From Octadecabacter temperatus (GTDB taxonomy: Bacteria; Pseudomonadota; Alphaproteobacteria; Rhodobacterales; Rhodobacteraceae): 64,000 nucleotides of DNA. A program made the translations under genes and the position numbers. Below are positions 6,794 to 16,689 of this stretch, piece by piece (position 1 is the first letter of the stretch; each line of letters starts with the position of its first letter). The notes beneath the pieces are model-generated. The model had not been told where the DNA came from. It ran no database searches and saw only the letters and a list, made by a program, of their open reading frames with translations. Where the stretch lies: NCBI RefSeq assembly GCF_001187845.1, contig NZ_CP012160.1, forward strand, positions 310,001-374,000. Direction: 5' to 3'.

Positions 6794-7819
6794 TCAAAGC
6801 GCTTGTTCATCTGTTCCAAAGAAGTGCAGATTCCCAGTCTCGAATTTCAGACCAACAGTCTGTCCCTCGATGTTTGGAAACGCTCCCGAGGTTCGCACAG
6901 TCAAAAGCCCAAGCGGCCCACAATCAATGTAGTGGAAAAAGTCTGCACCAAGGTATTCGCTGACCTGTACGACGCCATCACAGTGACCCGCGCCCTGATC
7001 GACCACACCAATATGTTCAGGCCGGATGCCAAGCTGCACTGCGCCGGGTTTGAGGTCTGGACGCCCCGTAAATCCGTCCGTAGTGCTGCAGGCGATCAGG
7101 TTCATTTTCGGACTACCGATAAATTGCGCCACAAACACGTTATCCGGCTTCTCATAGAGTTCACGTGGACTACCAACCTGCATGATCAAACCGTCTTTCA
7201 GAACGACAATCCGGTCCGCCAGTGTCATCGCTTCGACCTGATCATGAGTCACATAGACCATCGTCGTTTCAAGCGCTTTGTGCAGACGGGCAATTTCAAA
7301 CCGCATATCCACTCGCAAGGACGCATCAAGGTTGGAAAGCGGTTCGTCGAACAGGAAACCCTTTGGCTTGCGTACGATTGCACGGCCAATGGCGACGCGC
7401 TGGCGCTGACCGCCGGACAGGTCCTTAGGGCGGCGATCCATGTACGCATCAAGCTTCAAGATTTCTGCAGCGTTGTTAACTTTCTCCTCGATTTCGGCCT
7501 TTGGCGCGCCTGCGGTCTTAAGGGCGAAACCCACGTTGTCTTCGACGCTCATGTGCGGATAAAGCGCGTAGGACTGGAACACCATCGACAGCTCGCGCTC
7601 GGACGGGACTTTGTGAGTGACGTCATTTCCATCCAGCATGATCTGGCCGCGACTGGTTTCTTCCAATCCCGAGATCATGCGCAATAGTGTAGATTTGCCG
7701 CATCCCGATGGACCAACAAAAATGATCAATTCTCCGTCGAGAATATCAAGGTCAATGCCTTTGATTACTTGGACGTCGCCGAACCATTTTTCGACAGATT
7801 TGAGGCTGATAGAACCCAT
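6794..7819 (-). CDS. Sugar-type (CUT1/MsmK-UgpC-like) ABC transporter ATP-binding protein
   Basis: A 341-residue ATPase that would energise the two permeases encoded upstream. Walker A is GPSGCGKST (residues 36-44), the signature is LSGGQRQR (134-141), Walker B is FLFDEP (155-160), and the H-loop lies in [11 protein letters not shown]. The C-terminal 110 residues form the regulatory OB-fold (TOBE-like) domain typical of MalK/UgpC-type subunits (GIRPEHIGV). It is the last gene of the minus-strand operon, 22 bases after the GH63 hydrolase gene. The hydrolase and glycerate kinase neighbours suggest a glycosylglycerate as the cargo. Confidence 0.9.
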
Positions 7820-7841
7820 AATTTATATCCTTTGATTGGCC

Positions 7842-9116
7842 TCAGGCCACGCCTTCAAGCTTTGTTTCGTGTTGCCATGATAGCCAAACGGCCGCTGTCC
7901 ATGAAAAATTCGACCCAACGCAACCTTCGCCGGTCAATGGGTTGAAGCATTCCCAAAACCCCGACTTTTCAATCGCGCGGCACAGATCGTCTCGGACCTC
8001 TCTCGCCAGCTCTGCTTCACCTTGCTCAGCCAGCCCTTGGGCCGTCATGTAATTCATTTGCGGCCAGACAGGGCCACACCAATAACGCTGCGCCTCAAAA
8101 TCAGGCGAGTCCGGGTCCCAGCTGGGCAGCATGTAATCTACCTTGCTCGCAATCCGACGCAGGTTGTCCGCGGTGCGTGCCCGCTGGTGGGATGTTCCGC
8201 TGTCCGCATAAAAACACAATGCGCTGCAATTGCTGAACCCGGTTGAGAACGTACCGGTACGAATGTCGCGGGCGGTGAACGCACCGAGATCTTCGTTCCA
8301 CAGATAGTCGGTTGCGGCCTCGCCTTTGGCGATCCATGCAACGATCTGGTCACAGACCTGTGCAGGTTTGCCCATCTCTTTGGCCATCGCCAGTAAGTCT
8401 TTGTCAGCCCGCAGTAAAACGAAGTGAATGTTTGGGTCGGCCATCAAGAACGGCCCCTCGTCCGTCAAGCGACGCTGATCCCAATCGATGCTAACGCCAA
8501 AATGTACGATCGTTAGGTACTTGTCGTATTGTTCCTGCGTCGGGCGGTATTCTGGATTGATGTGTTTGTTGTCCATCCGCTGGTAGGGCGGCAAATCGGC
8601 AGCGATCTCCATCTGATCAAGACCGATGTTCCATTCGGGGCAATTGTCACGTCCCGTTTCCCACGGGTGGACCGTAGCGACGATGCCGTTCGCGGTCCGT
8701 GCATCGTGGAACCACTTGTGCCATGCGAAAATCGCATCGAACACTTCTGCCCGGCGAACTGCGCCACTTGGACCTTCGGTAATCTGGCGCACAACAGTCG
8801 CCAAAACAGGCGGCTGTGACACCCCTGTTGATGGGATCGTGCCGTGCGTTTTTCCCCAGCGAGAAGGGCCAGGAAAATAGTCAGGGTCATCGCTGCGAAA
8901 GATGATGCTGGGGATCATACCGTTCGGCCATTGGCCTTCGATCAAGGACGTGATTTCAGCCCATGCGCGATCCATATCGTAGGTCGCGATGCCAAGGGCA
9001 CAGAACGCAGAGTCCCAGTTCCATTGGTAGGGATAGAGCCCTGCCGTCGGGATCGTGAAACCGCCACGGTCATTCTTGGCAAGTGTATCGATAGCGAGTT
9101 GTTTGAGAGACATCAT
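7842..9116 (-). CDS. GH63 family glycoside hydrolase, probable mannosylglycerate/glucosylglycerate hydrolase
   Basis: A 424-residue cytosolic (alpha/alpha)6-barrel protein with no signal peptide, matching the length of the short bacterial GH63 enzymes that cleave mannosylglycerate or glucosylglycerate to hexose plus D-glycerate. Family-like segments are YPYQWNWDSAF (29-39), GQWPNGMIPSI, WETGRDNCPEW (152-162, Asp157 a candidate catalytic acid), QRYWCGPVWPQMNYM, and FWECFNP with FSWTAA near the C-terminus (Glu389 a candidate base). Trehalase-like or glucosidase activity is the alternative. The D-glycerate 2-kinase and mannose/lyxose isomerase genes nearby favour mannosylglycerate. Two adjacent ATG codons (9116, 9113) directly follow the permease stop. 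Confidence 0.75.
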   Translation of the reverse strand: MMSLKQLAIDTLAKNDRGGFTIPTAGLYPYQWNWDSAFCALGIATYDMDRAWAEITSLIEGQWPNGMIPSIIFRSDDPDYFPGPSRWGKTHGTIPSTGVSQPPVLATVVRQITEGPSGAVRRAEVFDAIFAWHKWFHDARTANGIVATVHPWETGRDNCPEWNIGLDQMEIAADLPPYQRMDNKHINPEYRPTQEQYDKYLTIVHFGVSIDWDQRRLTDEGPFLMADPNIHFVLLRADKDLLAMAKEMGKPAQVCDQIVAWIAKGEAATDYLWNEDLGAFTARDIRTGTFSTGFSNCSALCFYADSGTSHQRARTADNLRRIASKVDYMLPSWDPDSPDFEAQRYWCGPVWPQMNYMTAQGLAEQGEAELAREVRDDLCRAIEKSGFWECFNPLTGEGCVGSNFSWTAAVWLSWQHETKLEGVA

Positions 9117-10349
9117 TTAACCTTTCACGCTGCCAGCGGTAAGACCCGCGACAAGGAAGCGTTCAAACCATAAGAAAAGCGCCAAGACAGGAACTGTTGC
9201 GATTACGGCACCCGCCATAAGGTGCTGACGTGGAACCTCCGAGGAGTTCAGCTCAGCAATCCCGCGTGACAGAGTGTAAAGATCGACATTGTCGAGGAAC
9301 ATGAAAGCGAAGAGGAATTCGTTCCAAGCGATCATAAAGACATAGAGCGCGACGGATGCCATAGCAGGCAAAGCAAGCGGTAGGGTGATCTTTCGGATCA
9401 CATTTAAGCGGCTAAGCCCATCCATCAAACCAGCTTCTTCAAGCTCGGCAGGAATACCGCGAAAGTAGCCCTGAAGCATGTAAAGCGCGACAGGGATCGT
9501 CGTGGCCGGATAGACCAGCATCAGCCCCCAAAGCGTGTTGCGCATCCCAAGTTGGCTAAAAATCGCATAAAGCGGGATCACTAAAACGATCATCGGCACC
9601 ATATAAATCAACAAAATAGAGCGGCTCAGAAAATGTTGGCCCGGAAATTTCAGACGCGCCACAGCGTAGGCCCCCGGAACCGCAAAGAATAGCGTGATGA
9701 GGACGGTGACCACTGACACAAGTGCTGAGTTCATAAGATAGCTGCCGAAATGATACTGGGTGAACAGTTCAATGTAGCTGCGGAATAGCGCCGTGAATCC
9801 TTGTTCGAAATTGATCGAAAAATCGAGCGGGTTGGACAGCAACATTTGTTGGTTCTTCAGGCTCATCATCACCATGACAAAGAACGGAAGGGCGACGGCA
9901 ATGGTGAATGCGACGATGCCGAACCCCTTTACAAACCGCAGGCAGATGACCTCGACGTTATAGCGTCGTTCACGGCTGGGACCGAAACCTTTTGCTGTCG
10001 TGTTGATCGCGAATGTCACCAGCCAAGCCGTCACAACAACGGCAATTAGCTGACCAAACGAATAGGTCGACATCGCTAGGCCCAAAGGTTCGGCACCAGA
10101 GGTCACGGTTAGAACCAAGACGAAAATAAATGCGCTGAGCACACATATTCCCAATGTGCGTCTTTCGGGGGTGAACCCTGTCAGCACACCGGCGGTGACA
10201 AGCCCCGCAATGGCCCCAGCGGTAACTTGTGGCTGAAACAATTCACCAGAGATGAACAGCGCCAGAAGGGTAACCAGTATCGTGGCAATTGCCCCCCACA
10301 GTGCACCGAACAGCAAACAGAGGTAGAAGATATTCCCGAAACGGCTCAT
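9117..10349 (-). CDS. Sugar-type ABC transporter permease (MalG-like) with an N-terminal membrane extension
   Basis: A 410-residue inner-membrane protein. The C-terminal 275 residues are a standard binding-protein-dependent permease with the EAA loop (EAGLMDGLSRLNVIRKITLP) that docks the ATPase. The first 130 residues add about four hydrophobic segments (LFGALWGAIATILVTLLAL, GAIAGLVTAGVLTG and others), making it longer than the usual 280-residue MalG type. The start overlaps the upstream permease gene by four bases (ATGA), and its stop touches the hydrolase start, so the genes are probably translationally coupled. Confidence 0.85.
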   Translation of the reverse strand: MSRFGNIFYLCLLFGALWGAIATILVTLLALFISGELFQPQVTAGAIAGLVTAGVLTGFTPERRTLGICVLSAFIFVLVLTVTSGAEPLGLAMSTYSFGQLIAVVVTAWLVTFAINTTAKGFGPSRERRYNVEVICLRFVKGFGIVAFTIAVALPFFVMVMMSLKNQQMLLSNPLDFSINFEQGFTALFRSYIELFTQYHFGSYLMNSALVSVVTVLITLFFAVPGAYAVARLKFPGQHFLSRSILLIYMVPMIVLVIPLYAIFSQLGMRNTLWGLMLVYPATTIPVALYMLQGYFRGIPAELEEAGLMDGLSRLNVIRKITLPLALPAMASVALYVFMIAWNEFLFAFMFLDNVDLYTLSRGIAELNSSEVPRQHLMAGAVIATVPVLALFLWFERFLVAGLTAGSVKG

Positions 10350-11641
10350 GCGTCGTCCTCCGGTGAGAATTTGAAGAAGATCACTGAAAAGACCAGCAAG
10401 ATCAGGAACACGACCACCGCCACGGCGGCACCAGCACCAAGGTTGGACACAGCAAAGGCCTGTTCATAGACGTTTACCGTCAGGGTCCGCGTGCCAGCGG
10501 CACCACCCGTCAGTAGGAAGATGTCGTCGAACTTGTTAAACGTCCAGATGAAGCGCAGCAGGAACAAGACCGCCATAATGCCCGCCAGCTGCGGCAGCGA
10601 AATGAATCGGAATTGCTGGAGCGGTGTCGCGCCGTCGATTTCTGCGGCCTCGTAAATATCCGTGGACACCGACTGCATCCGCGCAAGGATGAACAGCATT
10701 GCCAGCGGAAAATAGCGCCAGATTTCAAAGATAATCACGACCGTAAGGGCGACGGGAAAATCAAACGACAACCCAAGGAACCGGATCTCTGCAACGCGCT
10801 GACCAAGGAAGTTGATTGGGCCGTCAATGACACCAAGTTGGATCAGCAGCGCGTTCAGCGTCCCACCAGGCCCCGGATCCAGCAGCAGCACCCAAGCGAG
10901 GGCGACAGCGATCACAGGGGCGACGTATGGGGACAGATATAGTCCCCGCAAGAAGCTGCGCCCACGGAATGTCATGTTCATCAACTGTGCCGCAAACAGG
11001 CCCATTACCAAGGCACCAATGGTGCCTGCGATAGTGTAATAGAGTGACGCCCAAAGTACCGGCCAAAAGTCAGACCCGTTGAAAACCTTTCGGAAATTAT
11101 CGAGCGTGAAATCATCGTTTATTAGAACGTTTTCGGGGTCAAACTCAAACGCGGCTTCGGTGTCTTTGACGTTGATGGGGGCGTCCAAGAAGGCCTGCGT
11201 TGCAGCGACGCGCACGATGACGTCTTCGCGTTTGCCCGCTTCGTAATCGCCGAGATCACAGGCCAAAACACTACCGTCCAAAGTACAGCGGTCATCGACG
11301 TTCAGAATGTCCAGTGTCGCTGGCAATTCATCGGTCATGAAGACTGCTGCTATGTCGCTTTGACGGGAGGAATTTCGGATCCGGTATCGGATATCGGCCT
11401 CGTCTCCCACGGCCTCAACGTCGCCCATTAGGCGTTCGTTCACGAGGATCGACGGCGCGCGCAGATCACCCAGCGTGACCGGCTTGAAGCTGATCCAGAC
11501 ATTGGCAAATAGGGGGAACAGGACAACGGACAACACGATTGCGAACGTCGGCAACAGCATCATATAGGCAAAACGCATTTCACGTTTGGCAAGCGGTCCT
11601 AAACCCTTGGGGGGCTGTGGCGGGCGATCATCCGACATCAT
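10346..11641 (-). CDS. Sugar-type ABC transporter permease (MalF-like) with a DUF11-like periplasmic insertion
   Basis: A 431-residue inner-membrane protein. The first helix (about 25-50) is followed by about 120 residues of soluble sequence (60-180) before the remaining helices; the EAA loop is AAEIDGATPLQQFRFISLP. The insert contains CTLDGSVLACDLGDYEAGK (Cys119, Cys128), a pattern like DUF11 beta-sandwich repeats, and would lie in the periplasm where the MalF P2 loop sits. It may help dock the binding protein. Two ATG codons (11641, 11638) are possible starts. A strong hairpin separates it from the binding-protein gene. Confidence 0.85.
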   Translation of the reverse strand: MMSDDRPPQPPKGLGPLAKREMRFAYMMLLPTFAIVLSVVLFPLFANVWISFKPVTLGDLRAPSILVNERLMGDVEAVGDEADIRYRIRNSSRQSDIAAVFMTDELPATLDILNVDDRCTLDGSVLACDLGDYEAGKREDVIVRVAATQAFLDAPINVKDTEAAFEFDPENVLINDDFTLDNFRKVFNGSDFWPVLWASLYYTIAGTIGALVMGLFAAQLMNMTFRGRSFLRGLYLSPYVAPVIAVALAWVLLLDPGPGGTLNALLIQLGVIDGPINFLGQRVAEIRFLGLSFDFPVALTVVIIFEIWRYFPLAMLFILARMQSVSTDIYEAAEIDGATPLQQFRFISLPQLAGIMAVLFLLRFIWTFNKFDDIFLLTGGAAGTRTLTVNVYEQAFAVSNLGAGAAVAVVVFLILLVFSVIFFKFSPEDDA

Positions 11642-11669
11642 CTAATCCAGATCATTAGGGGGGAAGGTC

Positions 11670-11695
11670 GGCGACGCGGAGGTTTCCGCGCCGCC
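11670..11695 (-). other. Intergenic hairpin between binding-protein and permease genes
   Basis: On the minus strand, an 11-bp stem (GGCGGCGCGGA / TCCGCGTCGCC, one G-U pair) closes an AACC loop. It lies just after the binding-protein stop and before the permease. No T-run follows, so it looks like an mRNA-stabilising or attenuating element, which would favour more binding protein than permease. Confidence 0.6.
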
Positions 11696-11707
11696 TGTTA
11701 GTATTGC

Positions 11708-13054
11708 TTACAGATCAAGAGCCATATGCTCTGCGACGATCTTGTCCGCAGCTTCCTGAACCGTAAGATCGCCATCTGTCATCTCACGAATAACGCGCGA
11801 CATAACTTGGGAGTTCACGATTTTGGACGCTGTGGCGAGTTGGCCGTCAGCCACACCCCAGCGGTCACCTACAGAGAGGCCTTCAACGATGTCGTCGATG
11901 ACGGACTGTGGGTAGATGTCACCCAGCGGCGCTTTGCGATCTACGCCAACGTCCAGGCCAGCCCAGGCCATCTCAAAGGATGTGTCGCCAGCTTCTGCGC
12001 CGCGACGTACCGGGAACTTGCCTTCCGGAGCCTGTGACAGCCACTGGCTGTAACCTTCGGACATAACGTATTCAACGAATTCCTGTGCAACGCTCGTGTT
12101 GGCGTCAGCAGAAATGCCGAGATAGCGCACGTCAGCATAGGCAGCGCCATCTGCATTGCCAGGGCCGGAAATCACGGTCGAGAAACCGGTCATTTCTGCC
12201 AAAGCAGTCGTCATAGGGTCATCGTCGATGGTGACTGGCGCACTGTCACGCAGGCCGCCAAGTTCGTCCAAAATAGATGGGGACCAGATCACCATTGCGG
12301 CTTTACCATCAAGGTACAGCTCACGGGACTGGGACCAGTACAAATCACCTTCGGGCGAGTTCGCAACGAGGTCTTGATAAAGCTCAAGAAGCTCAACCAG
12401 ATGCGTCGTGTCTTCGTTGATGGAACCGTCAGCGTTGACCGGTGAGTAGCCAGTAGCGAGCGAAAGGTGCTCGATCAACTGCATCATATAGCCTTCGTCA
12501 ATCTTAGTCGCGGCGACGAAGCCGTACATTTCAGGTGGGTTGTGCAGGGCTGTCATCGCGGCTTGCATGTCGTCAAAAGAAGACGGTGCTGCAAGACCGG
12601 CCGCTTCGAACAAGTCAGCGCGGTAAACAACAAGCTGGGTCCAGCCGTCGGATGGAACAGCTACGATTTCACCGTCAGACATAGCCATACCGACTGGGCC
12701 TTCAGCGAAGGTATCGACGCCTAAGTTGTCCATGACTTCGCTTGCAGCACCCGCATCCAGCAAACCGGCTTCGGAGTATGGCAGGATGTGGCTAACGGTC
12801 AGGTTGATGACGTCAGGCAGATCGCCAGCAGCAAACGCAGCAGTTGCGCGTGTCTGGATGTCGGATTCTTCGACTGGGATGATCTCAACTGTGTGGCCTG
12901 TTGCAGCCTCAAAGCCTGCAACCATTTCTTCCTGAACGGCGATACGCTCTGGCTGGACTTCCATTGTCCAGAACCGGATCGTGTCCGCATTTGCGGCACC
13001 CGTAAGAACGGTTGTGGCAAGTAAACCTGCCATTAGATGTGTAGTGCGTTTCAT
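11708..13054 (-). CDS. Extracellular solute-binding protein, sugar-type (family 1) ABC transporter
   Basis: A 448-residue periplasmic protein. Residues 1-23 are a Sec signal peptide ending TGAANA. The mature part follows the family 1 solute-binding pattern: IRFWTMEVQPERIAVQEEMV at the start, FAAGDLPDVINL, and YLDGKAAMVIW in the middle. It captures the substrate for the MalF/MalG/ATPase genes downstream. The start overlaps the lacI-type gene by four bases (ATGA), placing regulator and transporter in one transcript. Specificity cannot be read from sequence; the GH63 and glycerate kinase genes suggest a glycosylglycerate. Confidence 0.88.
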   Translation of the reverse strand: MKRTTHLMAGLLATTVLTGAANADTIRFWTMEVQPERIAVQEEMVAGFEAATGHTVEIIPVEESDIQTRATAAFAAGDLPDVINLTVSHILPYSEAGLLDAGAASEVMDNLGVDTFAEGPVGMAMSDGEIVAVPSDGWTQLVVYRADLFEAAGLAAPSSFDDMQAAMTALHNPPEMYGFVAATKIDEGYMMQLIEHLSLATGYSPVNADGSINEDTTHLVELLELYQDLVANSPEGDLYWSQSRELYLDGKAAMVIWSPSILDELGGLRDSAPVTIDDDPMTTALAEMTGFSTVISGPGNADGAAYADVRYLGISADANTSVAQEFVEYVMSEGYSQWLSQAPEGKFPVRRGAEAGDTSFEMAWAGLDVGVDRKAPLGDIYPQSVIDDIVEGLSVGDRWGVADGQLATASKIVNSQVMSRVIREMTDGDLTVQEAADKIVAEHMALDL

Positions 13055-14121
13055 TGAATTTCCTCCCGTTTTGAAACGTTTATTGGGCCCGCTACTCTCT
13101 CTAACGGTCCGTCGGTCTCGCGGCGCAGTAGTTGTGCACGCTGCAATTCTTGGTGTTTGATCGGATCATCGCCGTCGATGATCGCAAGCAACATGTCCCC
13201 CAATCTGCGCCCCGCATGTGCAAGCGGCTGCGCCATCGTCGTAAGTGGTGGATTGGTGTGAACGCCAAACTTGAGCCCATCATACCCAATCACAGAAATA
13301 TCCTTACCTGGCCGCATTCCGCGTGCTCGAATTGCGGCCAAAGCACCGATCGCCATCGAGTCCGTCACGCACACAATAGCTGTCGGCGGCTCTGGCAGAT
13401 CAAGCAACATCGAAGTGGCAATCTCGCCGCCATCATCACTGAGATCCGCGATCTGAATCAGGTCGGGATCGACGGGCAATCCGTTGGATTTGACCGCTTT
13501 GTTATAGCCGTTCAACCGGTCCTGCGTGAACTGGTATTGCAAAGGCGCACCGACAAAGGCAATGCGGCTGTGACCCAGTCCGACCAAGTGGTCAACGGAA
13601 GTGACAAAGGCATCTTCACCGTCCACATCAAACCACGCGTAATCGTCACTCGACCCCGTTCTACCGTGCACTACGAAAGGGCACTTCAGTCCCTGCAATA
13701 GGCGGATGCGCGGGTCATTTTTCAGCGGGCGTGACATCACAAGTCCCCCCACTCGACCAGAGCGAACCAAACGGTCGATCTGCGCTAGTTCATCCTTGGG
13801 TGAGTCTGCGTGAACCACGAGCACATCCCAATTCCGCATGCTCATTGCCTCGCCCAGCCCCTGCAAAAGCTGCGCCACGAACGTCTGCGCAATCGAATTA
13901 CTATGACGTGGCAAAACATAGCCGATGGTTTCAGGGGTGCCGATGGAAAGGCTGCGCGCAGTCTTGTTTGCACGATAGCCCAATTCATCCGCTGCGCGCT
14001 TCACTCGCTCGCGGGTTACTGGACTGATGTCGGCATAACCGTTCAATGCGCGGCTCACCGTCCCGACCGTTAGATCAAGGTGTGCTGCAAGTACTTTTAA
14101 GCTGACCGGCTTCCCAGACAT
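13051..14121 (-). CDS. LacI family transcriptional regulator of the glycosylglycerate-type cluster
   Basis: A 356-residue repressor. The N-terminal helix-turn-helix (VLAAHLDLTVGTVSRALNGY) is followed by the hinge helix (RANKTARSLSIG) and a periplasmic-binding-protein-like effector domain. It is the first gene of the minus-strand operon and faces the isomerase gene across a promoter region with two identical palindromes (CGAAACCGGTTTCG), which are the expected LacI-type operators. It therefore probably represses both divergent operons, and its own gene, until a sugar or glycosylglycerate effector binds. Confidence 0.9.
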   Translation of the reverse strand: MSGKPVSLKVLAAHLDLTVGTVSRALNGYADISPVTRERVKRAADELGYRANKTARSLSIGTPETIGYVLPRHSNSIAQTFVAQLLQGLGEAMSMRNWDVLVVHADSPKDELAQIDRLVRSGRVGGLVMSRPLKNDPRIRLLQGLKCPFVVHGRTGSSDDYAWFDVDGEDAFVTSVDHLVGLGHSRIAFVGAPLQYQFTQDRLNGYNKAVKSNGLPVDPDLIQIADLSDDGGEIATSMLLDLPEPPTAIVCVTDSMAIGALAAIRARGMRPGKDISVIGYDGLKFGVHTNPPLTTMAQPLAHAGRRLGDMLLAIIDGDDPIKHQELQRAQLLRRETDGPLERVAGPINVSKREEIQ

Positions 14122-14149
14122 CGATTCCCTCCCATTTCATCAACGCTAA

Positions 14150-14165
14150 CCGAAACCGGTTTCGG
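14150..14165. promoter_or_regulatory. Perfect LacI-type operator 1
   Basis: CCGAAACCGGTTTCGG is a perfect 16-bp palindrome with the central CG-free ACCGGT core usual for LacI-family sites. It lies 29 bases upstream of the lacI-type start codon, where it could autoregulate. Confidence 0.85.
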
Positions 14166-14173
14166 AAATCAAG

Positions 14174-14187
14174 CGAAACCGGTTTCG
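14174..14187. promoter_or_regulatory. Perfect LacI-type operator 2
   Basis: CGAAACCGGTTTCG repeats the core of operator 1 exactly, with dyad centres 23 bp apart, about two helical turns. It is closer to the isomerase gene and probably controls that promoter, or serves as the second half of a cooperative site. Confidence 0.85.
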
Positions 14188-14281
14188 GTGGGCGAATTTT
14201 AATTGTATGAAGAGATGTTGGAATCAGAAATTCGCGCTTTTCATCATAAAAATCACGCGCAAAAATACAGGAACGGGACAG

Positions 14282-14968
14282 ATGAAACGCTCACGCATAA
14301 ACGAAATCATCACTGAATCTAACGACATGATGCGCTCTTTCGGGTTTGTTCTGCCGCCCTGGGCCTACTGGACGCCGGAAGAATTTAAAGCGCGTTCTGG
14401 GGAGGCTGCGGCTGTAATCGCGGCCCGAAATGGCTGGGACATCACCGACTATGGAGACGGTGATTTCGACAAAATGGGGTTGTTCCTTTTCACCTTGCGA
14501 AACGGACGTTTGGCCGATCTGAAACGGGGAGGTGGAATGTGCTACGCGGAGAAACTACTTATTTCGAAGCAGGACCAACTTAGCCCGATGCACACCCACG
14601 TCATAAAGGCCGAAGACATCATCAACCGTGGTGGAGCTACGTTGGTGGTCGAACTTTTCGGCTCAGACTCGGATGGGGGATTCGACGAAACAGCCGGCGG
14701 TACGGTGTTCTGTGATGGGCTGCGTCGTGACTACGGTCCCGGCGAGAAACTGCGCCTTAAGCCTGGTGAAAGCGTCACCCTTATGCCAGGCGATTGGCAT
14801 GCATTTTGGGGCGATGGCGGCGATGTTCTGATTGGTGAGGTTTCCACGGTCAACGACGACGAAACCGACAACATCTTCCGGGATCCGATCGGTCGATTTG
14901 CCGAAATCGAAGAAGACGAAGCGCCCAAGCACTTGTTGGTTAGCGATTACCGAACTTGGCTGGTCTAA
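14282..14968 (+). CDS. D-lyxose/D-mannose ketol-isomerase family protein
   Basis: A 228-residue cupin enzyme. Metal-binding cupin residues are visible: LSPMHTHVIKAEDIINRGG carries the His-x-His and Glu, and LMPGDWHAFWG the later His. Length and order match bacterial D-lyxose isomerases, which also interconvert D-mannose and D-fructose. This would move hexose released by the hydrolase into fructose metabolism. I chose the ATG at 14282, after CAGGAACGGGA; the frame is open back to 14207, but that extension lacks family pattern. It is divergent from lacI and starts the plus-strand operon isomerase-GNAT-glycerate kinase. Confidence 0.8.
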   Translation: MKRSRINEIITESNDMMRSFGFVLPPWAYWTPEEFKARSGEAAAVIAARNGWDITDYGDGDFDKMGLFLFTLRNGRLADLKRGGGMCYAEKLLISKQDQLSPMHTHVIKAEDIINRGGATLVVELFGSDSDGGFDETAGGTVFCDGLRRDYGPGEKLRLKPGESVTLMPGDWHAFWGDGGDVLIGEVSTVNDDETDNIFRDPIGRFAEIEEDEAPKHLLVSDYRTWLV

Positions 14969-14971
14969 ACG

Positions 14972-15418
14972 ATGATTACTGATGCATCTCCTGAAAGCGG
15001 GTTTTCGAGCGATTTGGAAGCAGCTCTACTGGAGGATTTAAGGGCCTCGTCCGCTCAAACTCACAACGGTCGAGTTGACCTAGCGGTGCGAGATGATGAC
15101 GGAGCACTTCTGGCAGGACTGGCTGCAACCACGTCTTACGGCTGGCTACGAGTAAATATGTTATGGGTTTGCTCGGGTCATCGGCGTACAGGCTTGGGGC
15201 GGCAGTTGATGCAACGCGCATTCGAACAAAGTCTTCAAAAAGGATGCCATGCGACATGGCTAGAAACCTCAAACCCGCAGGCGCGGGACTTTTACAAAAG
15301 TTTGGAATTTGAAGTCTTTGCAGCGCTGACAAATGAAGCAAACGACGTGCCACAGGGACACACGCGTTGGTTCTTGCGCCGCAAACTGGGACCCTCGCTG
15401 TTCGGAGAAACATCATGA
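14972..15418 (+). CDS. GNAT family N-acetyltransferase
   Basis: A 148-residue protein with the acetyl-CoA-binding GNAT pattern: RVNMLWVCSGHRRTGLGRQL is strand 4 plus the pyrophosphate loop (R/Q-x-x-G-x-G/A type), followed by WLETSNPQARDFYKSLEF typical of motif B. It starts three bases after the isomerase stop and overlaps the glycerate kinase start by four bases, so it is translated from the same message. Its acceptor is unknown and its role in the pathway is not obvious. Confidence 0.8.
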   Translation: MITDASPESGFSSDLEAALLEDLRASSAQTHNGRVDLAVRDDDGALLAGLAATTSYGWLRVNMLWVCSGHRRTGLGRQLMQRAFEQSLQKGCHATWLETSNPQARDFYKSLEFEVFAALTNEANDVPQGHTRWFLRRKLGPSLFGETS

Positions 15419-16689
15419 CGGACCTTATCACCGCCGCGCGAACCTTCCTTGAAGGCCTGTTCGCCGAGGCTGTCGCCGTCGCCGACCCGATGCGCGTCGT
15501 TGCTGCGCATTTGCCCGCACGTCCGGAGGGGCGACTTGTGATCATCGGCGCTGGCAAAGCAAGTGCGCGCATGGCCGAAGCGGTCGAGGCTCATTATGGC
15601 CCCTGTGATGGGCTCGTTATCACACGATACGGGTATGAGCGGCCAACACAGGGTATCGAGATTGCGCAGGCATCTCATCCGGTTCCCGACACCGCGGGCG
15701 TCACCGCGACACGAAAAATGATCGATCTTGTGACAGGGCTCACACCCGACGATTTTGTCATCGCTCTCATATCTGGTGGCGGCTCCGCCCTGCTGTGCGC
15801 GCCCTCCGATGGGCTTACGCTCGACGACAAAATGGAGGTGAACCGCGCATTACTGGCGTCCGGCGCGCCGATCGACGAGATGAACATCGTGCGCAAACAT
15901 CTTAGCTTGATCAAAGGCGGCCAACTGGCTGCGGCATGCCACCCTGCCCAACAATTGACGCTGTTGATTTCAGACGTACCTGGCGATGATCCATGCCAGA
16001 TCGCGTCGGGCCCCACGGTTGGTGAAGAAAGCACCGCGCAAGATGCTCTTGCTATTCTCGATCAACGAGGCATTTCCCTGCCCTCTCATATCCGTAACTC
16101 AATCGCTGAAGCTTCTTCAGTTGTGCCACCAAACGATCCGCGCCTATCGCATGCCGATACAAGGATCATTGCAGCCCCTTCCCATTCTATCGCTGCCGCC
16201 GCAAAGCTGGCGAAGACTGCCGGATACGACGTACGTAATCTTGGCGACGCAATCGAGGGTGAGGCCCGTGACCTTGGCGCACAGCAAGCTGCACTCGCGT
16301 TGTCGCTTCAGGCCGAACTCAAGCCGAGCGATAAGCCCATTTTGTTGCTGTCTGGTGGTGAATGCACTGTAACCCGCCGCGGTGACGGCATTGGTGGCCC
16401 GAACGCGGAATTCGTGCTGTCAGCCGCAATCGTTCTGAATCGACAACAAAGCATCCACGTTCTTGCCTGCGATACCGACGGTGTCGACGGCGCCGCTGAG
16501 ATCGCTGGCGCTTATGCGGGTCCGGAAACGTTGTCGCTCGCCTTGCAAGTTGATCGCGACCCCGTGGCTGCGCTTAGCGAAAACGACGCCCATAGCTTTT
16601 TCGCATCTGTGAGGGGGCAGATCGTAACCGGACCGACCTTAACGAACGTCAACGATTTCAGAGCGATTCTGATCTTGCCACTAAGCTAA
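15415..16689 (+). CDS. Glycerate 2-kinase (MOFRL family, GckA/TtuD type)
   Basis: A 424-residue cytosolic enzyme phosphorylating D-glycerate to 2-phosphoglycerate, which enters lower glycolysis. Seen are IIGAGKASARMAEAVE (nucleotide loop), LISGGGSALLCAPSDGL, NIVRKHLSLIKGGQLA, and the C-terminal MOFRL segment LLLSGGECTVTRRG with CDTDGVDGAAE. I chose the ATG at 15415, which overlaps the GNAT stop (ATGA). It is the last gene of the plus-strand operon. In this context glycerate would come from hydrolysis of a glycosylglycerate. Confidence 0.9.
   Translation: MTDLITAARTFLEGLFAEAVAVADPMRVVAAHLPARPEGRLVIIGAGKASARMAEAVEAHYGPCDGLVITRYGYERPTQGIEIAQASHPVPDTAGVTATRKMIDLVTGLTPDDFVIALISGGGSALLCAPSDGLTLDDKMEVNRALLASGAPIDEMNIVRKHLSLIKGGQLAAACHPAQQLTLLISDVPGDDPCQIASGPTVGEESTAQDALAILDQRGISLPSHIRNSIAEASSVVPPNDPRLSHADTRIIAAPSHSIAAAAKLAKTAGYDVRNLGDAIEGEARDLGAQQAALALSLQAELKPSDKPILLLSGGECTVTRRGDGIGGPNAEFVLSAAIVLNRQQSIHVLACDTDGVDGAAEIAGAYAGPETLSLALQVDRDPVAALSENDAHSFFASVRGQIVTGPTLTNVNDFRAILILPLS

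Follow-up and report, generated by a model that had tools for sequence, protein, structure and literature searches.

A probable island for import and catabolism of glycosylglycerates, chiefly mannosylglycerate, in Octadecabacter temperatus

In the 64,000-nucleotide stretch of Octadecabacter temperatus DNA analysed here (contig NZ_CP012160.1 of assembly GCF_001187845.1, positions 310,001 to 374,000; hereafter the window), nine genes at 6794–16689 form two compact operons that diverge from a region holding two operators, both perfect palindromes. These genes probably constitute an inducible import-and-catabolism island for α-glycosylglycerates, chiefly mannosylglycerate (digeneaside). Catabolism of a glycosylglycerate is well supported by the sequence evidence. 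Mannosylglycerate is the better-supported substrate, on the basis that (i) the mannosylglycerate hydrolase (MgH) of Thermus is the nearest solved relative of the island hydrolase; (ii) most substrate contacts are kept; (iii) two mannose isomerase families are linked to the hydrolase; and (iv) the host appears to have no type I phosphomannose isomerase. Glucosylglycerate is a possible second substrate, and the niche may be that of marine red algae. An earlier note on this DNA had put forward the substrate with the same reserve, which our analysis retains. If the reading is true, a widespread and poorly named gene set, with hydrolase homologues in 92 of the 295 sampled genomes of the host family, gains a concrete substrate class, and the fate of a red-algal osmolyte could be followed through genes and put to the test in bacteria that can be cultured.

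The reading starts from what is directly observed, namely the gene content and protein families, the conserved catalytic residues and most substrate contacts, the operators, and the recurrent linkage of the genes. The features of the island are the following:

6794–7819, reverse strand: ABC transporter ATPase of the MalK/UgpC type (ABC_tran 117 bits, TOBE_2 38 bits; NF008653 437.9 bits against a cut-off of 432)
7842–9116, reverse strand: GH63 (MGH1-like) glycosylglycerate hydrolase, by family (PF22422, 394 bits against a cut-off of 27)
9117–10349, reverse strand: ABC permease of the MalG type, extended at the N terminus by about 140 residues
10346–11641, reverse strand: ABC permease of the MalF/UgpA type with a predicted β-sandwich domain inserted after the first transmembrane helix
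11670–11695, reverse strand: hairpin between the binding-protein and permease genes (computed folding energy)
11708–13054, reverse strand: periplasmic solute-binding protein (among solved structures, closest in sequence to Escherichia coli YcjN, 93 bits)
13051–14121, reverse strand: LacI-family regulator (family match)
14151–14164: operator 1, CGAAACCGGTTTCG, a perfect palindrome
14174–14187: operator 2, CGAAACCGGTTTCG, 23 bp from operator 1
14282–14968, forward strand: D-lyxose/D-mannose isomerase, putatively converting mannose to fructose (PF07385, 336 bits against 20.8)
14972–15418, forward strand: GNAT-family acetyltransferase, 3 nt past the isomerase and overlapping the kinase start
15415–16689, forward strand: MOFRL/DUF4147 glycerate 2-kinase (DUF4147 280 bits, MOFRL 108 bits)

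The leftward operon encodes, in order, the LacI regulator, the binding protein, the two permeases, the GH63 hydrolase, and the ATPase; the rightward operon encodes the D-lyxose/D-mannose isomerase, the GNAT acetyltransferase, and the MOFRL glycerate 2-kinase. Within the operons, genes overlap or are separated by at most 22 nt, the sole exception being a gap of 66 nt behind the binding-protein gene. For the isomerase, the ATG at 14282 is the most likely start, in preference to 14207, because the family match begins at 14282. By profile matches, the MalFGK-type sugar ABC importer is complete, with a binding protein, two permeases, and a MalK-type ATPase. Every gene that the earlier note had named in its two divergent operons was found, with strong family matches, and the shared operators proved to be two; the GNAT gene at 14972–15418 had been overlooked. 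The same note had remarked that the route lacks a fructose/hexose kinase, and indeed none is present among the nine genes.

We infer the enzymatic steps, the transported substrate, the repression, and the inducer as follows. The binding protein and the ABC transporter would import the intact solute, which the cytoplasmic GH63 enzyme would split into mannose and D-glycerate. The D-lyxose/mannose isomerase would then convert mannose to fructose, which would be phosphorylated by a kinase encoded outside the island, and the MOFRL kinase would convert D-glycerate to 2-phosphoglycerate. Both halves of the solute would in this way reach central metabolism. LacI, acting at the tandem operators, would keep both operons repressed as long as neither the solute nor a product is present.

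The hydrolase matches the whole PF22422 domain (394 bits, profile positions 1–356 of 356). In a comparison with solved structures, it scored 346 bits to Thermus MgH (2z07/4wva) against 191–198 bits to the glucosylglycerate hydrolase (GgH) of Mycolicibacterium hassiacum (MhGgH), and it falls below the NCBIfam equivalog cut-off for glucosylglycerate hydrolase (NF047898, 298 against 550 bits). We aligned the window hydrolase with 111 homologous open reading frames (ORFs) and both reference enzymes, and compared them at the residues that PMC6608630 names. The catalytic acid Asp157 and the base Glu389 correspond to Asp182 and Glu419 of MhGgH. In MhGgH numbering, the residues Tyr36, Trp40, Trp42, Asp43, Tyr88, Phe89, Gln115, Trp177, Gly180, Asp182, Arg216, Tyr222, Tyr375, Trp376, Trp381, Glu419, and Trp436 are identical in the window hydrolase; they comprise the catalytic pair and 15 further named contacts. 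All 5 direct glycerate contacts (Tyr36, Trp40, Tyr88, Arg216, and Tyr375) are among them, and several residues lining the entrance tunnel vary. Gln434, which contacts glucose in the mycobacterial enzyme according to PMC6608630, corresponds to Phe404 in the window hydrolase, and the position is also Phe in the Thermus enzyme and in all 108 grouped homologues. The active-site residues fix the substrate class and not the sugar, because characterized MgH enzymes take both glycosylglycerates; as a decisive means of telling mannosylglycerate from glucosylglycerate they were dropped for the same reason.

These data bear on the proposal that the operon serves trehalose or another α-glucoside, as the name “trehalase family glycosidase” would have it. 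Nearly all the named records seen carry “hypothetical”, “MGH1-like”, or “trehalase family”, and a trehalase Pfam profile matches weakly (22.9 bits against 21). The MGH1 match of 394 bits, the 5 retained glycerate contacts, and the linked glycerate kinases all argue against a trehalose operon, which we regard as highly improbable.

The sugar half of the proposed mannosylglycerate route is supported by the linkage between hydrolase and isomerase genes. Pairs were counted among the matches listed (all 93 for the hydrolase, 150 for the isomerase, and 87 for the glycerate kinase), and the counts are lower bounds. In 12 of the 92 family genomes, no more than 12 kb separates a hydrolase gene from an isomerase gene, against about 0.43 expected from random placement in a 3.8-Mb genome with kinship ignored, and seven of these 12 pairs are 15–36 bp apart. 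Isomerase presence tracks that of the hydrolase (at least 68 of 92 genomes with it against at most 85 of 203 without it; Fisher p = 3.6e-7, not corrected for kinship). Among the relatives' loci (the best 80 of 517 candidates in genome contigs, with distant relatives outside this set), 23 of 80 have a linked isomerase; of the 19 loci whose identity is 65% or more, 15 have it, and one of the four near loci without it is a 4.2-kb contig. The isomerase gene may be divergent, follow the ATPase gene, or directly follow the hydrolase gene, and the hydrolase tree demands at least 15 changes of isomerase linkage, with two long-branched reference rows of unsure placement. The 112-locus set of this tree includes loci fetched for an adjacent isomerase, and the counts of 12 of 92 and 23 of 80 are less biased. 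A few loci hold identical proteins (L013/L014 and L018/L137), the gene calls of the relatives are crude ORF heuristics by which 9 of 81 loci lost the hydrolase ORF in neighbour clustering, and the family scans of neighbours cover chosen representatives.

In three loci (L054, L055, and L073), an AGE-family protein is found instead of the D-lyxose/mannose isomerase. The best NCBIfam match of the L054 copy is D-mannose isomerase (198 bits against a cut-off of 600), and the copies in L055 and L073 were assigned by their similarity to it. Two unrelated isomerase families able to make fructose from mannose are linked to the hydrolase, which points towards mannose as the product. In 4 Opitutales loci, MpgS- and MpgP-type genes adjoin the hydrolase gene (one of each was scanned by profile). 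The 2-hydroxyacid dehydrogenase and tricarballylate-type neighbours in some Litoreibacter loci were taken as unrelated.

The host genome gave no match to two type I phosphomannose isomerase models, which matched 2 and 7 of 14 control genomes (type II enzymes were not sought). Nor did it match one MpgS model (1 of 14 control genomes) or one GpgS model (3 of 14, none over the cut-off), single-step synthases not being sought. The absence of type I phosphomannose isomerase and synthase matches is what a scavenger that channels mannose into fructose would show. Of six PfkB genes in the host, the one at C1:828613-829491 has fructokinase as its top match (111 bits against a cut-off of 450), and the other five match another family best. 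No sugar gene was found among the four neighbours of C1:828613-829491 that were scanned, and the gene is a weak fructokinase candidate.

The nearest solved relative of the glycerate kinase is 2b8n. The earlier note had proposed that the kinase should recur beside the hydrolase in relatives. This held in part: the kinase is adjacent in few relatives, and it does adjoin in other Rhodobacterales and on a Loktanella plasmid; on a Deinococcus plasmid, a DUF4147 protein takes this place. Among the matches listed, it lies within 12 kb of the hydrolase in 7 of the 92 family genomes. Adjacency of the glycerate kinase is the weakest leg of the earlier case, being recurrent and not the rule; the kinase may act from elsewhere in the genome, because a homologue is present in 277 of the 295 genomes. 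In L020, L127, and L130, too, the GNAT gene is flanked by isomerase and kinase; overall it occurs in 10 of the 112 loci, 8 of which have the isomerase. A second isomerase–kinase pair of the host (L118:8017-9981; kinase 72% and isomerase 81% identical) lies beside a KDO-transferase gene, with no hydrolase.

Several observations weigh against the proposed island function or its niche: (i) His78, which PMC6608630 counts among the substrate-binding loop residues of MhGgH and which is not known to define the family, is His in the Thermus enzyme and MhGgH and corresponds to Ser70 in the window hydrolase; Ser is shared by each of the 18 near relatives grouped and by 7 of 18 at middle distance, the other relatives grouped having His apart from 1 of 30 far ones; (ii) Thermus and Selaginella MgH split mannosyl- and glucosylglycerate with similar efficiency, according to the same paper; (iii) the isomerase falls below the cut-off of the NCBIfam equivalog NF051472 (233.5 against 350) and is a common gene, present in 153 of the 295 family genomes; (iv) the kinase falls below the equivalog cut-offs of NF041176 (213 against 550) and NF040791 (169 against 670), and is adjacent to the hydrolase in 5 of the 80 loci, none of which is among the nearest 19 (L002, L004, L013, and L019 of these 19 lie on contigs that end too soon to judge); (v) the isomerase–kinase pair has other uses, because it is also found with no hydrolase nearby (L131–L134 and the second host copy); (vi) a Meiothermus relative has a sugar phosphorylase after the hydrolase; (vii) in L073, a glucosyl-3-phosphoglycerate synthase-type gene and an MPGP-family gene stand beside the import operon by profile scan (L073:695-2801), and L051:4796-6865 holds members of the same two clusters; (viii) G145, the other genome sampled from the host genus, has neither hydrolase nor isomerase, and the trait is therefore patchy; and (ix) 71 of 102 plasmid records with a hydrolase homologue are from Rhizobium, all 102 being less than 60% identical. 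Because distant homologues are common on Rhizobium plasmids, the wider hydrolase family extends beyond marine habitats, and the niche is not necessarily a marine one. Together, the His78 position, G145, and the Rhizobium plasmids make the niche less secure and introduce a residue without an explanation; they leave the substrate class unchanged.

The synthase and MPGP genes of L073 and L051 suggest that some relatives make and recycle glucosylglycerate, and they favour the view that glucosylglycerate is the physiological substrate, with the isomerase acting on another substrate or being a bystander. Marine picocyanobacteria make glucosylglycerate. In the same direction point the acceptance of glucosylglycerate by MgH enzymes and the 80 of 92 family genomes with no isomerase within 12 kb of the hydrolase among the matches listed. 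Among solved binding proteins, the closest in sequence is E. coli YcjN (8vqk, 93 bits), which is presumably encoded in one gene cluster with YcjM; this kinship also counts for a glycosylglycerate solute under the main reading. A table in PMC8950772 gives YcjM as a glucosylglycerate phosphorylase; YcjM resembles the island hydrolase in acting on a glycosylglycerate and differs in acting by phosphorolysis instead of hydrolysis. Glucose needs no mannose isomerase, however, and the isomerase in 15 of 19 loci of the window clade, the AGE isomerase in three other loci, and Phe in place of Gln434 all speak against glucosylglycerate as the physiological substrate, which makes this view unlikely. Dual specificity of MgH enzymes would also suit a general importer that takes up several glycosylglycerates, where the isomerase and kinase would handle any product that requires them, and the same operator and operon indeed occur in loci with and without the isomerase. 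The tight coupling of the isomerase in the window clade argues against this version, which we hold to be quite unlikely and which is in part the same claim as an island chiefly for mannosylglycerate, with a weaker preference.

A second operon type was found in L126–L130 and others, with a different ABC system (permeases 26–35%, ATPase 38–44%, and hydrolase 38–41% identical to those of the window). In L127 and L130, the hydrolase is followed by the isomerase, GNAT, and kinase in one row. A Loktanella salsilacus plasmid carries, in a row, LacI, a binding protein, permeases, an ATPase, a “trehalase family glycosidase”, a “D-lyxose/D-mannose family sugar isomerase”, and a “glycerate kinase”, with no GNAT. 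The isomerase is likewise placed in Rhodobacteraceae SC52, with no kinase annotated beside it, and Marinovum algicola has a differently named gene of isomerase length at that place. A Ruegeria conchae plasmid has the gene order of the first type without isomerase and kinase, and on a Deinococcus peraridilitoris plasmid a DUF4147 protein and a ROK-family protein come after the hydrolase. A more speculative idea, tentative and on balance doubtful, is that GH63 hydrolase, mannose isomerase, GNAT, and glycerate kinase form a portable cassette that was joined independently to at least two ABC importers in alphaproteobacteria, that mannose would enter as fructose in hosts without type I phosphomannose isomerase, and that GNAT would perform an unrecognised step of the pathway.

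The E. coli mngAB system resembles the island in using mannosylglycerate as a carbon source; it differs in importing the solute through a phosphotransferase system and in cleaving the 6-phosphate with a mannosidase. For Zobellia, the digeneaside genes reportedly come from work of Barbeyron 2016. PMC8072126, which cites that work, reports digeneaside degradation genes for Zobellia galactanivorans and Maribacter, and PMC6298971 lists digeneaside as a possible substrate of polysaccharide utilization loci in North Sea flavobacteria. The likeness to Zobellia is that marine bacteria are proposed to use this algal solute in both cases; Zobellia differs in belonging to the flavobacteria. The idea is already known, because these genes have been reported for Zobellia and Maribacter. 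In the literature searched, no paper was found that joins mannosylglycerate with lyxose isomerase, the only one found for mannosylglycerate with glycerate kinase was a Lactiplantibacillus genome paper, and an alphaproteobacterial ABC-import version of mannosylglycerate catabolism was not found, the matches being mostly at title level. The parts are known; this arrangement in alphaproteobacteria was not found described in that literature. As for the enzymes themselves, Thermus thermophilus MgH (2z07, 4wva-c) resembles the window hydrolase in family, length, catalytic pair, most contacts, and Phe at the Gln434 position, and differs in its diverged sequence and in having His in place of Ser70; moreover, the window enzyme lies in an ABC-import operon. 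By contrast, M. hassiacum GgH (PMC6608630) shares the fold family, the catalytic pair, and the direct glycerate contacts, and differs in its lower score (198 against 346 bits), in the replacements of Gln434 by Phe and His78 by Ser, and in the missed equivalog cut-off.

The two copies of CGAAACCGGTTTCG at 14151–14164 and 14174–14187 are the only perfect ones in the 3.26-Mb genome. The looser form CGAAANCGNTTTCG has 5 genome sites, against 0 for the reversed control. The three further sites were considered as a regulon for the missing hexose kinase; their centres are asymmetric or changed, no sugar gene was seen by eye in the surrounding ORFs, and they were taken as chance. Of the 182 loci fetched, 59 contain the pattern CCGAAANCGNTTTCGG, two of these 59 being copies of the window site; in the best-80 set it is present in 40. 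A palindrome of the operator kind lies between LacI and isomerase in all seven aligned divergent regions, window included; no such palindrome turned up in second-type operon loci. A conserved CG-centred palindrome is present at the putative regulated promoter, and the LacI protein may bind the tandem palindromes and repress both operons until an inducer arrives. In 6 loci (L063, L056, L060, L062, L066, and L073), a gene on the opposite strand upstream of the LacI gene encodes a protein of about 609 residues (L063:3040-4869); no Pfam or NCBIfam profile matched the copy in L063.

The MalF-like permease contains a domain after its first transmembrane helix (residues ~61–170, 11132–11461), which is predicted to be a β-sandwich, with block mean pLDDT values of 87–94 over residues 61–170 and 68 for the whole model. 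The domain has a sub-threshold DUF11 match (17.9 against 24.6 bits) and two cysteines that are invariant in 35 of 35 aligned sequences. In a fold search with the whole model, ABC sugar permeases were the best matches, and single β-domains were found lower down. Permeases of the second operon type, at about 280 residues, are too short for such a domain. As a guess, the β-sandwich might dock the binding protein. The ~140 extra N-terminal residues of the MalG-type permease (9915–10349) are apparently membrane-spanning, with no Pfam match over the cut-off. The hairpin in the 66-nt gap has a computed folding energy of −24.5 kcal/mol (z −4.38; 0 of 200 shuffles as stable), and it may perhaps hold the mRNA level of the binding protein above that of the permeases.

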